Below, piece by piece: positions 24,358 through 32,438 of a DNA stretch of 64,000 nucleotides (its first letter is position 1; every line of letters starts with the position of its first letter). The notes below the pieces were generated by a model. That model made no database searches, was not told where the DNA came from, and saw only the letters and a program-made list of their open reading frames with translations. The DNA lies in contig JAHDHL010000007.1 in assembly GCA_020631355.1 (NCBI GenBank), forward strand, positions 62,001-126,000, given 5' to 3'. The translations under genes were made by a program, and so were the position numbers. This DNA comes from Saprospiraceae bacterium (lineage in GTDB: Bacteria; Bacteroidota; Bacteroidia; Chitinophagales; Saprospiraceae).

Positions 24358-24738
24358 TCATACAGGGAAGTGCAGAACGACGGTCACTACTCCCCATACC
24401 ACCAATTCCGCATCACTTGATATTCTTGTGGATGGTACATCCGGATGTGCAGCCCGCAACCAGATTGCATCCCCCTCTGGCATGTATTTCCTTACCAGAT
24501 ATTCACGATTTATCTCTGCCACAATGATATCACCATATTGGGGCGGAAAAACGGAGCGATCCACAACCAATACATCCTCATCGTGGATGCCCGCATGCAA
24601 CATTGCATTCCCTTTCATTCGTAAAAAATAGGTAGCCGTAGGATGTTGGATTAACAAATCATCCAGACTCAAGTTCGCTTTCTTATAGTCGTCAGCAGGT
24701 GACGGGAATCCCGTACACCGGTTCTTTCTCCTCTTCAT
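24358..24738 (-). CDS. umuD: UmuD-like protein lacking the catalytic Ser-Lys dyad
   Basis: A 126-residue S24 (LexA/UmuD) fold protein that aligns closely with UmuD: CTGFPSPADDY at the processing region, LLIQHPTATYFLRMKG, GIHDEDVLVVDRS, GDIIVAEI. The catalytic serine of GDSM is alanine here (KGNAML, codon gca). The catalytic lysine of E-F-T-V-K is arginine (REYLVRKY). Both halves of the dyad are therefore lost. Only about nine residues precede the normal cleavage point, so the chain is already close to UmuD' in size. It could act as a constitutive, cleavage-independent partner of the UmuC at 283-1551, or be decaying. Confidence 0.85.
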   Translation of the reverse strand: MKRRKNRCTGFPSPADDYKKANLSLDDLLIQHPTATYFLRMKGNAMLHAGIHDEDVLVVDRSVFPPQYGDIIVAEINREYLVRKYMPEGDAIWLRAAHPDVPSTRISSDAELVVWGVVTVVLHFPV

Positions 24739-26382: not shown

Positions 26383-26422
26383 AGAAACCCCGAATTTTTG
26401 AAAATCAAAATTCGGGGTTTCT
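26383..26422. terminator. Bidirectional terminator
   Basis: A perfect 16-bp stem (AGAAACCCCGAATTTT / AAAATTCGGGGTTTCT) with an eight-base loop lies between the convergent MFS and EAD11 genes. Confidence 0.85.
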
Positions 26423-26452: not shown

Positions 26453-27229
26453 CTAATCATCATCCCATAAATCATCGTAGGATATGTCGTCATCCATATC
26501 TGTTTCATATTCCTGCATAACTTGGAATACCTTGGAATTCATGAAATAGGACGAAACAACACCTCCCAATACTCCTAGGAAGCCAGCTTTGAATAATTGC
26601 TTATAATTGGACTCATCCTGTTGGATGGCTGTCTCTAGTTTATCCGAATAATCCGAGCGATAATCATCGTATTTCTGCCATCCTGAGAATAGGTATTCTA
26701 TGACCCTACTCTGATGATATATGTATGATTTGACATCATCAGGGGTTTTCCAAAAGGATGTTATTCCTAATAGGGTTTCGTATTCTAGGTTAGCCAGAAT
26801 AAAACTTAGGGAGATACTTTTACCATTGTTGTGTTTTTCCTCATTAGCCAGTTTTCTGAATGCATTGAAATCTTCCGCTATGAACCATTTCATGAATACA
26901 TCTATAGGCCCCTCTTTCTTCAGTATTCCTAATTTCTTATTACTCAAAGCCAAACTCAATTCCGTATTAGAGATGAAATCCAAGCGCTTTCGCTTCAATC
27001 CTGAAGCAGATTCCTTTTCGATTTCCGTTATGATATATAATAATGCGAATACAATTCTATTCCGTTCATATTCGGGAGGATGATTACCCATTACGAATTG
27101 ATGGTACCATTCCTTGTATTGAGAACTCAACAATGAGATATCATCACTGAATTTACAATCCAATGCAAGCAATGCAGTGATGGCACCATCAATATCGTTC
27201 TTAGCAATCAGCTTCCTGTAATCTGGCAT
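26453..27229 (-). CDS. EAD11-type adaptor protein with acidic tail
   Basis: A 258-residue protein. The first about 72 residues fit the effector-associated domain 11 pattern: YRKLIAKNDIDGAITALLAL, then LLSSQYKEWYHQFVMG, then ERNRIVFALLYIITEIE. EADs are small death-like adaptor domains that link effectors in NTP-dependent conflict systems of multicellular or complex bacteria. The middle (about 80-205) is helical and unknown. A hydrophobic stretch, FLGVLGGVVSSYFM (about 219-232), precedes a very acidic tail (ETDMDDDISYDDLWDDD). It lies 13 bases downstream of the 1082-residue membrane protein in the same operon. The domain call is by pattern, not by search. Confidence 0.65.
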   Translation of the reverse strand: MPDYRKLIAKNDIDGAITALLALDCKFSDDISLLSSQYKEWYHQFVMGNHPPEYERNRIVFALLYIITEIEKESASGLKRKRLDFISNTELSLALSNKKLGILKKEGPIDVFMKWFIAEDFNAFRKLANEEKHNNGKSISLSFILANLEYETLLGITSFWKTPDDVKSYIYHQSRVIEYLFSGWQKYDDYRSDYSDKLETAIQQDESNYKQLFKAGFLGVLGGVVSSYFMNSKVFQVMQEYETDMDDDISYDDLWDDD

Positions 27230-27242
27230 TTATCCGAATCTA

Positions 27243-30200
27243 TTATTCACAAGGTTTCCTGTTCTTCTCGGCATCCACTTCCTCTGCATCCCACAGTCTC
27301 TTGATCTTCTCCAAGTCGTATTCTTCGAAACCATCACGAAGCATGAGTATCATTTCGGCACTTTCCCAATCAGGGACATTCATATTCCAAGTAGGTGTGG
27401 GGCGATTTTCCAGGGCTGTAAGGGTTTCTGAAGATAAATGGTGTAATTTTTCAACTGGAAACTCTGTTCCCAGATCACCATTCATGATAACCCTGAATAA
27501 TCGCTGAGCAATGGCAAAGGAAGCCATTCTCTCCAAGGTGTACCTGTCATTACTATTGGTGCCGACTCCCAACCATACCAACTTACCAATGGTATTGTTC
27601 CTTTCCAATGCGGGGAATTCCCAAGGATCTGAAATATCATTATCCCCATCATTATCTCCCAAAGGGCTGTATGCAAGCTGCCTCATGAATCTGAAAGGGA
27701 AAAGATGATCATCATTCTGTTTGAGGAAGTTCAAATCAGCATCCACCTCATAATCCTGTTCCCTTACACCTGACCATTGTTCCACTTCCACCTTCAGATA
27801 CTTTTCTGCATCATCGGCATCAATTTCCTTGGTTCCCATTGCATCGACAAAAATGGAGAATATCCCATCCGATGCTTGCATCGCCCTGTAAATTTCCTCT
27901 AGGAATGATTGTTCATAATACTTACCCTTACCCCACATATGGGAAGATTCCTCATCCATGAGTAATCGCCCCTCGTTCAACACATTATATATCTCATCCC
28001 AATCTTTTTCTAGTACGGATTCGAATTGTTCCATAATCAAATCTATCTCGAATGAGAAATCAGCCTTATTGGCGGCGAATTTGAAAACAGCATACTTATA
28101 GAGCATTTCCTGATATCCATAGGATTTCATGAGTCGATCCACTTGTTCGCTATTATCACCTGAAGCATACTTATCGACAAAACGATCCAGATTAATAGCA
28201 TTACATCCTAATTCCGTATCCAACAAGGTAGGATGCGTGAGTATCTTAAGCATGGGTATCGGATTGCCTGTTACCATCGTAACAGTAGTCAGACGACCAT
28301 CAGAAACATAAGCAAGGGCCTGATTCAGGATATCCTCCTCGAATATTCCCGCGGAAATTTTTTCACCATCCTTTCTATGGAGATAAATCTCTAATCCAGT
28401 ATCTCTTTTTTCCCAAGTAATATCATTGAATTCCACTCCTGTATTGCCTGTATTCGTTGGTTCCTTACCAATTAATACACCTCCGATTCTTCTAAAACCC
28501 TTGAGTGCCTTGAAATTCCTGGCTCTTGAAGCACTAGCAGAAGCAAGGGGCTTGATGGCATGTCTGGAATGCTTGAGTGCCTTGGCAGCATTGGATGATG
28601 CATCCGCACCAGCCTGGCCCGGAAAGTATCTATTGAAGTCAGATAATGACTCTGTATATCGAAGTAACTTGGCATCATCCGATTTGGCTAGGGCTTCTAC
28701 GGCTCTACGTGCCTTAGTAGCCTGATTAGCATCCATCTTATGATCCACTGCCGAAGGAAAATCGACTAGTTCATTATATGCCGTTTTCAAAGGTATCTCA
28801 CTATTGGTAGTAAACGCTGAAAATTTAGTATTCCCGATAGGGGAAGTCTTCGAATTCTGGACGGCTTCCTTGATGCCCTTAGAATAGAGATCATTAGTAA
28901 ATCGGCTTTGTTTGAGTTCTACCATTCTCCTCACTGTATTATCTCCGTATTGCCCAAAAGCTTCCTTTACAACCTTACCCTCCATCTTATCCAATGCAGA
29001 TACTTCATCCAGGGTTTTCCCAGTGAGTTCATTGACCAAATCGCCAATCATACTACCTAGAACTTGCCTTGGAGTAGCAGTCGTAGAGAAAGAATTCTTA
29101 GACGATTTAATCTTGCTCCTTTCGGCCTTAATACGTTTCCAACTCTTGGGATCCTTATCTACCCTAGACTTAAGATTGGCTCTGAATTTCCTACCATTGG
29201 AAGAAACGGGTTTCTTCGAATGGATATTCTTCGAAAAATTATGACTGAATCTCTTTGCGAAATCAGATTCAGGAGAATCGAATTTAATATGCTTTCCTGG
29301 TTCGGAAAAATTGAAACTGGTTCCGTGATGTTTATTCCTATAATCTGCATAATCAGAAACAATCCTACTCTTGACAGCATTCGTCATTAGCGCATAACCA
29401 ATTACTGTTGTAGATATGACACCGGGTTGCCCCATCTCCTCAGCAATGGAAAGTTCATATATTCTTGATATCTCATCTAATAACTCCAGATTCTCATCAT
29501 TCCAATCTATGGGTTCATCATCATCCTCCTCATTTGAATCAGGATTCGAACCTGAAGACTGAAGTGGTGTGCCCGATTTCAAATTCTCAACCCATTCCTT
29601 ATCCAGTTTTTGCTGTTCCATCCTCACCTGTACATCAAATAATCCCTTGGTAGAATCAGTAATCATATCCTTTGTAATCGGACTCGTTGCTGCCAGGAAA
29701 GAAAGCATTACCATAGCCAAACCTATAGAGGTAAAAACCTTTCCTGTCTTGTGTACCAGATTGACCATTCCCGTGCTAGAAAATAAGATAAGGAGACGAT
29801 TCAAGAAACCTTTGGGTGGTTCACTACCCTTGGCATCCATTGTTCCATACACCCGTCTTTTGGCATCCAACTCAAAATAGTGTTCCCTTAAATTTTGGAT
29901 ATTTTCTTCTATGAGGGCAACTGCTTTGAGTTTCCCTTCTTCTCCACCATCAAAAAAGGAATGAGACGTAGAATTCAGACGATTCAACTGACGTTCTTGC
30001 TCCTTTATTTTCAAATTTACATCTCTCATATCTGATGTAGGATCTAAATCCTCAAGTTTCCCCTCCCTCAAGTCAGCAATAATTTTCCTCAACTCGTCAT
30101 AGACACCCATTCTGATTTTCCTGATGTACACCAAAACAAGAATACCTGCCAAAAGAAAGAATATGACATAGAATTTCAGGTAGTCAACGGAATTAATCCA

Positions 30201-30491
30201 AGCACTAACTCCTGTAAGGAAAGTAAAGAGATTCGAAGCAATCTTTTCCGAACCAATAAAAAAACCATCTGAAAAATCAAGTATTTTCAGGAAAGCCCAA
30301 ATACCTCCGTATGTCAGAAAAGCCACGAATGCAAATCGCTTAATTAGTGAAATAAGAGCTATCCAACTTATTTTAGTTAATGCGGGAAATTTACTTTTAT
30401 GAAAAGATCTATCCTTTACTATTGGGAGACAAATATATTTGAAAATGGTCCATGTGATAATGGATATAAATGTAACTGCTAATAAGTCCAT
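27243..30491 (-). CDS. Large multi-domain membrane protein, unknown family
   Basis: A 1082-residue protein I do not recognise. The N terminus has about four membrane segments (roughly 3-22, 42-66, 84-98, 105-124), a charged coiled-coil-like stretch (about 130-215), and a fifth segment near 255-275 (IGLAMVMLSFLAATSP). An acidic Ser/Asn linker (SSGSNPDSNEEDDDEP) and a long soluble region follow. The basic, Ser/Ala-rich middle (about 400-640) looks disordered or helical, and the final 400 residues look folded, mostly helical and acidic. There is no Walker, protease or nuclease motif I can defend. It is co-transcribed with the EAD11 protein; composition is AT-rich, suggesting an acquired module. 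Confidence 0.8.
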   Translation of the reverse strand: MDLLAVTFISIITWTIFKYICLPIVKDRSFHKSKFPALTKISWIALISLIKRFAFVAFLTYGGIWAFLKILDFSDGFFIGSEKIASNLFTFLTGVSAWINSVDYLKFYVIFFLLAGILVLVYIRKIRMGVYDELRKIIADLREGKLEDLDPTSDMRDVNLKIKEQERQLNRLNSTSHSFFDGGEEGKLKAVALIEENIQNLREHYFELDAKRRVYGTMDAKGSEPPKGFLNRLLILFSSTGMVNLVHKTGKVFTSIGLAMVMLSFLAATSPITKDMITDSTKGLFDVQVRMEQQKLDKEWVENLKSGTPLQSSGSNPDSNEEDDDEPIDWNDENLELLDEISRIYELSIAEEMGQPGVISTTVIGYALMTNAVKSRIVSDYADYRNKHHGTSFNFSEPGKHIKFDSPESDFAKRFSHNFSKNIHSKKPVSSNGRKFRANLKSRVDKDPKSWKRIKAERSKIKSSKNSFSTTATPRQVLGSMIGDLVNELTGKTLDEVSALDKMEGKVVKEAFGQYGDNTVRRMVELKQSRFTNDLYSKGIKEAVQNSKTSPIGNTKFSAFTTNSEIPLKTAYNELVDFPSAVDHKMDANQATKARRAVEALAKSDDAKLLRYTESLSDFNRYFPGQAGADASSNAAKALKHSRHAIKPLASASASRARNFKALKGFRRIGGVLIGKEPTNTGNTGVEFNDITWEKRDTGLEIYLHRKDGEKISAGIFEEDILNQALAYVSDGRLTTVTMVTGNPIPMLKILTHPTLLDTELGCNAINLDRFVDKYASGDNSEQVDRLMKSYGYQEMLYKYAVFKFAANKADFSFEIDLIMEQFESVLEKDWDEIYNVLNEGRLLMDEESSHMWGKGKYYEQSFLEEIYRAMQASDGIFSIFVDAMGTKEIDADDAEKYLKVEVEQWSGVREQDYEVDADLNFLKQNDDHLFPFRFMRQLAYSPLGDNDGDNDISDPWEFPALERNNTIGKLVWLGVGTNSNDRYTLERMASFAIAQRLFRVIMNGDLGTEFPVEKLHHLSSETLTALENRPTPTWNMNVPDWESAEMILMLRDGFEEYDLEKIKRLWDAEEVDAEKNRKPCE

Positions 30492-30860
30492 TTTATTAGT
30501 TTTTAGTATTTATACTTCTACAGTATTTGGAATATTTTTTAACCTTAGATGATTCCTATCCAATTTCTTGAGCCTCTCACCCCGTCTTAATCAGGGATGA
30601 CCAAAAAGAAGTAGAGGCTAATTATCTGCATGATAATTAAGCTACCCAAAACCAGAATTGAAATAGGGAATTGCTATTTTAGTGTTGTAGTATCCATTGT
30701 TTTCTATCGCTTTATGTTTTTAAAAATTAAGTCTAAATTTGAAGTAAAGTATATACTTGGTTTTCTTTTAGTTGTGAATATAAAAATAACAACGAGAAAA
30801 ACTAAAAAGAAAATGGGAATTAAAACATAATTTTAATTCAAATATCACTACATTAAATAT
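30492..30860. other. AT-rich intergenic region with an 8-bp hairpin
   Basis: 369 bases between the divergent large membrane protein and GNAT-fusion genes. It contains the hairpin TAATTATC-TGCAT-GATAATTA (30619-30639) and a longer-range pair AGCCTCT/AGAGGCT around 30571-30617. A 66-codon frame (30630-30830) is extremely Lys/Ile-rich and is not called. The promoters for both flanking genes must lie here. Confidence 0.45.
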
Positions 30861-31781: not shown

Positions 31782-32438
31782 ATGGCATTTCCCAAGGAAC
31801 ACATCATTCCATTTTATGGCTCGGAGCGGCCCGAAATGTTTGAAATCGAACGTCGGTGTATGGATCGGGAGGGCAAGGTAATCCGATACCTGAATGAGCA
31901 TTTGCCAAAAGGAATGATCCTGGATGTAGGTGCAGGAAATGGTTTTACCGCCATGCAGTTGCAACAAGAGGATAGGATTGTAGTAGCATTGGAACCCAAT
32001 GAGGGAATGATAAATCATGACCGCAATTTGGTATGGATTAATGCTTCAGCAACCAATATTCCATTGCATTCGAATAGCATTGATGCCGCCTATGCCACTT
32101 GGGCATTCTTTTTCCCCAGTTTTCATCAGGATAAGGTTGATATAGGTCTGAAAGAACTCCAAAGGGTGGTCAAGAAAGGAGGTAAGATTCTTATCGTGGA
32201 TAATGCAGGAGATGACGAATTCTCATCACTGACTACAAATTCCATAGGAGGGTGCAAATATGATTGGGAATATTGGAAGAATCAGGGATTCCAACACCAC
32301 ATTATCCATTCTAAGTTCATATTTGATGATGTGGATGAGGCCCAAAAATTATTGGGTTTTTATTTTGGAGAAAAGGGTCATACTTTTGATAAGACAGAAA
32401 TCGAGTATAGGATTGTGGTCTATGAGGGAATTGTATAA
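31782..32438 (+). CDS. Class I SAM-dependent methyltransferase
   Basis: A 218-residue Methyltransf_11-type enzyme with motif I ILDVGAGNGFTA (about 46-57), an acidic end of beta-2 (VVALEPNEGM), IPLHSNSIDAAYATWAFFF (motif II/III) and LKELQRVVKKGGKILIVDN. The substrate is unknown. It starts three bases after the GNAT fusion, so the two probably modify a common molecule or are at least co-expressed. Confidence 0.85.
   Translation: MAFPKEHIIPFYGSERPEMFEIERRCMDREGKVIRYLNEHLPKGMILDVGAGNGFTAMQLQQEDRIVVALEPNEGMINHDRNLVWINASATNIPLHSNSIDAAYATWAFFFPSFHQDKVDIGLKELQRVVKKGGKILIVDNAGDDEFSSLTTNSIGGCKYDWEYWKNQGFQHHIIHSKFIFDDVDEAQKLLGFYFGEKGHTFDKTEIEYRIVVYEGIV

Follow-up and report, generated by a model that had tools for sequence, protein, structure and literature searches.

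Effector-associated domains (EADs) have been proposed, in passages of two studies by Kaur et al. (2020, 2021; PMC7159879, PMC8195603), to couple effectors and signaling parts to cores through homotypic contact, and part of the latter paper (PMC8195603) presents the tracing of EADs to uncharacterized linked proteins as a route to new effectors. The figure legend of a CRISPR survey names EAD7 (PMC10910872), the diversified conflict systems of multicellular bacteria are the stated subject of PMC10907252, and a count of the term EAD11 in the text of PMC7159879 and PMC8195603 found none. Here we analyze a 64,000-nucleotide stretch of DNA from Saprospiraceae bacterium (GenBank assembly GCA_020631355.1, contig JAHDHL010000007.1, positions 62,001 to 126,000 of the forward strand; hereafter the window), in which the gene for a 1082-residue membrane protein is followed by a gene for a 258-residue protein carrying EAD11. 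No description of this pair was found in the literature searched, a scope that left out supplements and most subscription papers. We take the pair most likely to be a membrane part, effector or sensor, that EAD11 ties into a conflict network.

The locus resembles the EAD principle, as those passages of Kaur et al. set it out, in its small protein with a significant N-terminal EAD11 and in the many EAD11 copies of its genome, a majority of them joined to signaling or effector-type domains (counts below). It departs from that principle in two respects: the cores named there (VMAP, iSTAND, and GAP1) do not include its partner protein, and a Pfam scan finds no EAD on the large protein. MoxR-vWA ternary systems, whose third component is VMAP or iSTAND, share the idea of EAD-mediated coupling; unlike them, the locus has no MoxR or vWA protein among the ten window neighbors scanned with Pfam, the part of the genome to which that search was confined. 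If the large protein is an effector, it would share a membrane site of action with known membrane-acting conflict effectors, but it has no significant match in PADLOC, Pfam, or NCBIfam, and it differs from them in its approximately four membrane segments with some 800 residues beyond the last. The parts of the pair are as follows.

27243 to 30491, minus strand: gene of the large membrane protein, 1082 residues (open reading frame [ORF] list).
27243 to 28541, minus strand: conserved C-terminal region, residues 651 to 1082 of the large protein (three-homologue alignment).
26453 to 27229, minus strand: gene of the small putative adaptor, 258 residues (ORF list).
27017 to 27217, minus strand: EAD11, residues 5 to 71 of the small protein (Pfam PF19964).

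An earlier sequence-only reading had proposed that the small protein begins with EAD11, and Pfam bears this out (PF19964, E 3.1e-9, 37.1 bits against a cut-off of 26); a genome-wide scan recovers the same domain at E 8.1e-9. The structure prediction that the reading had called for agrees: an AlphaFold model built from two sequences has four helices within residues 4 to 74, at moderate confidence (predicted local distance difference test score [pLDDT] of the blocks, 57 to 76), and is unreliable outside the EAD11 part. The two ORFs lie where that reading had placed them, the large gene upstream and 13 bases between them. In PADLOC, neither window protein has a match at E up to 1.

The proposed two-gene unit is kept in a second genome, Lewinella sp. 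W8 (hereafter W8). Its large homologue (1129 residues) is 32% identical to that of the window, and its small protein (281 residues) is 28% identical and carries EAD11 above the cut-off (E 1e-9, 38.6 bits); the gene order is the same, large then small, with the ORFs overlapping. Both small proteins are built in the same way, with EAD11, a pair-specific region, a glycine-rich hydrophobic segment (residues 212 to 230 in the window protein), and an acidic tail. The last 30 residues have net charges of −10 and −13 in the window and W8 proteins, respectively; among the other 23 EAD11 proteins of the window's genome, the last 20 residues range from −5 to +4. Beyond EAD11 the two small proteins are homologous to each other (E 3e-15), and the same part gives only E 0.4 or worse against the other EAD11 proteins of both genomes, some long ones among which are cut by locus ends. 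Matching only the other pair member, this part is probably specific to the large protein. The shared tail region, hydrophobic segment, and acidic tail are good evidence, as read from the two sequences, that the small protein is a dedicated adaptor.

The unit sits in a genome rich in EAD11. The 6.2-Mb genome of the window holds 24 EAD11 genes, each above the Pfam cut-off; in 14 control genomes, EAD11 gave matches in 2 and a match over the cut-off in 0. The suggested link to conflict-type proteins gains from what these domains are attached to: a Pfam scan placed immune-type or signaling domains on 14 of the 23 other EAD11 proteins. Roc-COR occurs on four (one of them, at a contig end, with COR only), STAND NTPases on three (two NACHT and one NB-ARC), CHAT on three (one just below its cut-off), and caspase, trypsin, TIR, and FGE-sulfatase domains on one each; 8 of the 23 have no other clear domain. 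In W8, EAD11 gives 18 matches in 17 ORFs, and three EAD11 genes besides the pair's own, none adjacent, lie within 26 kb of the pair, where approximately 0.13 would be expected by a figure computed after the cluster had been seen. A further observation in this stretch of W8 is a 1943-residue ORF less than 20 kb from the pair (L005:10025-15856, minus strand) that has two EAD11 domains and a very glycine-rich C-terminal end.

Pairwise scores make the EAD11 domains of the two pair members mutual best matches (107, versus 79 and 83 for the next). In a tree of 42 domains (24 from the window's genome and 18 from W8), in which 3 of 39 inner branches are starred, 29 of 39 are open, and a long-branch warning applies, the window's domain is placed next to the domain of a CHAT protein from the same genome, and that of the W8 pair next to one from the 1943-residue W8 protein. 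Because tree grouping and pairwise scores disagree, we make no claim of EAD11 coevolution within genomes.

Three other EAD11 loci of the window's genome deserve description in their own right. On contig C121, an EAD11 ORF (L053:6403-7140, minus strand) overlaps the end of a RAMP-type gene triplet (L053:7112-10144), whose middle member is above the Csm4_C cut-off, arranged as in a type III CRISPR operon; the C-terminal part of this EAD11 protein has a weak likeness to NARF (PF20299, E 1.6e-4, under the cut-off), and a link between EAD11 and type III CRISPR is possible from this arrangement. Contig C122 carries two EAD11 genes close together (L039:5774-9434, minus strand), one of them separated by 10 bases from the gene ahead of it, whose product has five hydrophobic segments and matches Peptidase_M48 (E 4.9e-7); this locus is, by its predicted products, a second EAD11-membrane unit in the genome. 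Finally, on contig C105, a 187-residue EAD11 protein with two hydrophobic segments (L055:5777-7275, minus strand) overlaps a 312-residue protein with one hydrophobic segment and weak matches to coiled-coil-type families.

The large protein had been described as a membrane protein with no recognizable enzyme motif, and so it appears. Simple hydropathy gives approximately four hydrophobic segments, near residues 3 to 21, 41 to 71, 105 to 123, and 252 to 270, and about four are likewise found in both homologues, that of W8 and that of a third genome, G1361, introduced below. A charged region occupies residues 125 to 250. Residues 276 to 650 form a less conserved linker (25.4% and 21.8% identity to the two homologues) with an acidic stretch followed by a basic one, and residues 651 to 1082 form a better-conserved C-terminal region (39.9% and 33.3%) with motifs invariant in all three proteins: GF.RIGGVLIG, QALAY..DGR, LDR.VD, WSGVRE, and PW.FPAL. 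Judged by the charges flanking the segments, what follows the fourth segment would lie outside the cytoplasm, while the basic stretch of the linker argues for the inside. No significant match to the large protein was found in Pfam, NCBIfam, PADLOC, PHROGs, or PDB sequences. A Pfam scan of the C-terminal region in the three homologues gave nothing significant (best E 0.048), PDB profile searches gave nothing above chance (best E 0.52 in one and no match in a second), and family searches recognized no sensor domain. A suspected likeness of the C-terminal region to DUF1598 (PF07643) was rejected: its hidden Markov model matched none of the loci in G000, G546 (W8), and G1361 at E up to 10, its one hit being an unrelated place in G1361 (E 0.86), and DUF1598 was absent as well from the Pfam scan of the three homologues.

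Relatives of this protein were sought in several draws of genomes, which overlap, so that their counts are not summable. With the window protein as the query, 395 genomes of the phylum returned the window's own genome alone, and 396 genomes of the order returned one further genome, W8. Profile searches found the same two genomes among 398 of the family and, among 395 of the class, the window's own genome and one new clear homologue, an 1118-residue protein in G1361 (E 1.5e-73), a genome from another family; seven weak class-level matches (E 0.0037 to 0.062) were set aside and are not counted as homologues. In 150 genomes of G1361's own family, G1361 alone matched, and in a set of 242 genomes of the phylum, the window's own genome alone did so. 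A search of genome_contigs with the single large protein found no relative, and with a two-row alignment it found the W8 locus alone. There was no relative in viral contigs, nor, with the W8 protein as the query, in plasmids and phages. The large protein is very rare and patchy in its distribution, and the third homologue has no PADLOC match at E up to 0.001.

Around the pair, two further features can be placed.

26383 to 26422, minus strand: terminator-like hairpin, 16-pair stem and T run (pattern match alone).
30492 to 30860, no strand assigned: 369-base upstream gap, presumed promoter region (26.6% G+C).

The hairpin, which the sequence-only reading had taken as a bounding terminator, is present between the small gene and a convergent MFS gene; as a class, though, such sites do not exceed the number expected by chance (3 in the region versus a shuffle mean of 3.2), and promoter-like sites show no excess either (14 versus 15.0). 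The upstream gap is also there, and AT-rich sequence is limited to it. The genes themselves, which had been called AT-rich, are ordinary: the G+C content of the large gene is 40.4% and that of the small gene 37.3%, compared with 41.2 ± 3.3% in 41 other window ORFs, a set picked from the ORF list. The idea of a self-contained acquired module likewise found no positive evidence, the composition of the genes being ordinary and comparison with genus-mates uninformative. The MFS neighbor is present in seven of eight other genomes of the genus (38 to 52% identity), and around it, in six of those seven loci, none of 13 other window genes was found (tblastn, E ≤ 1e-5), so gain or loss of the pair cannot be read from synteny.

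The ten neighbors scanned with Pfam include dehydrogenase, MFS, GNAT, methyltransferase, LytTR, hydrolase, and cupin proteins. A PADLOC scan of five neighbors gave one match, that of the methyltransferase at 31782 to 32438 to mad2 (E 2.4e-9, partial profile), which we read as a generic methyltransferase resemblance. Elsewhere in the window, a Peptidase S24 (UmuD-like) gene lies at 24358 to 24738 on the minus strand; inspection of the ORF list by eye, without a dedicated test, showed beside it no ORF resembling the usual polymerase partner.

The reading we favor, to which we assign a probability of roughly 0.45, is that the pair forms a two-gene EAD11-coupled membrane unit that is switched on by the EAD11 network as one of its outputs. 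The sequences themselves show the EAD11 identity, the conservation of the pair in a second genome, the common build of the small proteins, and the extent of the EAD11 repertoire. We infer that the two genes are co-transcribed, that their products bind each other, that recruitment is homotypic, and that the unit acts at the membrane, as well as the direction of signaling and the activity of the pair. The large protein would sit in the inner membrane through its approximately four segments, and its specific function, exerted on the envelope or in holding a scaffold, would lie in its conserved C-terminal region. Translated from a shared transcript, the small protein would bind the large one through its pair-specific C-terminal part, with the glycine-rich hydrophobic segment and the acidic tail, and would display EAD11 to the cytosol. 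There, EAD11 would couple the membrane protein, like with like, to other EAD11 proteins of the cell, such as Roc-COR, NACHT, or NB-ARC switches or CHAT- or caspase-type proteases. Switches that sense invasion or stress would then activate the membrane protein, one output among several.

Several results weigh against this reading. The loci of the large protein total three, the window included, and EAD11 is coupled to it in two of them: the G1361 locus has no EAD11 neighbor, and EAD11 was undetected throughout that genome at E ≤ 0.01. In the searches made, the large protein showed no recognized effector or enzyme domain, and AlphaFold modeling of that protein's C-terminal region gave an unusable result (pLDDT 30.9). 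As a membrane helix, the hydrophobic segment of the small protein in the window scores on the borderline (1.46). The genome scan gave no second EAD11 match on the window's contig, and by Pfam nine of the ten scanned neighbors are metabolic or regulatory in type and the tenth has no match. Nor was a cognate EAD found on the large protein or an adjacent gene, types other than EAD11 being covered only by the Pfam scans of the pairs and the window neighbors.

The third locus bears on the division of labor. Since neither the G1361 locus nor the genome has detected EAD11, EAD11 is not essential to the large protein. G1361 keeps the large protein without it, a pattern in which the large protein looks like the core, with EAD11 as the plug that would connect it to a network. 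In G1361 the large gene is followed, 154 to 220 bases downstream depending on which start is taken, by a gene for a membrane protein of 245 to 267 residues; this protein has no Pfam match, and neither the window's genome nor W8 contains a relative. The earlier suggestion that the large protein is a new membrane effector or sensor stands in part: it is plausible, the W8 pair strengthening it and G1361 weakening it.

The alternative that survives best, although we think it rather unlikely, reverses the flow: the large protein would sense an envelope event, such as phage entry or membrane stress, and its EAD11 partner would recruit CHAT, caspase, trypsin, or TIR executioners. Such executioners are ready in the genome, fused to EAD11; the large protein lacks a recognized effector domain, and its big, well-conserved C-terminal region could serve in sensing; yet no known sensor domain was found, the direction of signaling is not readable from sequence, and signaling in G1361 would need another route.

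We regard as improbable a second alternative, in which the large protein has a lineage-specific envelope or housekeeping role and the added EAD11 gene serves to regulate or localize it outside immunity. The EAD11-free locus of G1361 and the metabolic and regulatory neighbors in the window favor it, as do the flanks of the W8 pair, which, as read from translations only, look nondefensive (e.g., MutS2-like). The distribution of the large protein is too patchy for such a role across the draws from order, family, class, and phylum, however, and the other EAD11 proteins of the window's genome often carry conflict-type domains. Finally, a toxin-like membrane protein held in check by a small antitoxin- or immunity-like protein, with EAD11 as the release switch, is very improbable: the tight two-gene unit, the acidic small partner, and weak matches given by the small protein of W8, in Pfam to PoNi_N (E 6.4e-4, under the cut-off) and AbiEi_3 (E 0.074) and in PADLOC to AbiEi (E 0.0065), point that way, but the small protein of the window shows none of these matches, the size of the large protein would be unusual for such a toxin, and G1361 has no EAD11 partner.

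Returning to the favored reading of an EAD11-coupled output unit, an unlikely form of it would make the 1082-residue protein the founder of a new family of EAD11-gated membrane executioners, large four-segment proteins that would disrupt or reorganize the envelope when their EAD11 partner is clustered. If that were true, an EAD11-gated executioner clustered by NLR-like or Roc-COR switches would parallel death-domain-triggered membrane effectors. EADs are thought to plug diverse parts into bacterial immune networks, and the pair, kept in two genomes, is a specific case of this. Made up of a membrane protein of no known class and a dedicated EAD11 adaptor, it offers a defined, testable link from death-like adaptors to the bacterial membrane.

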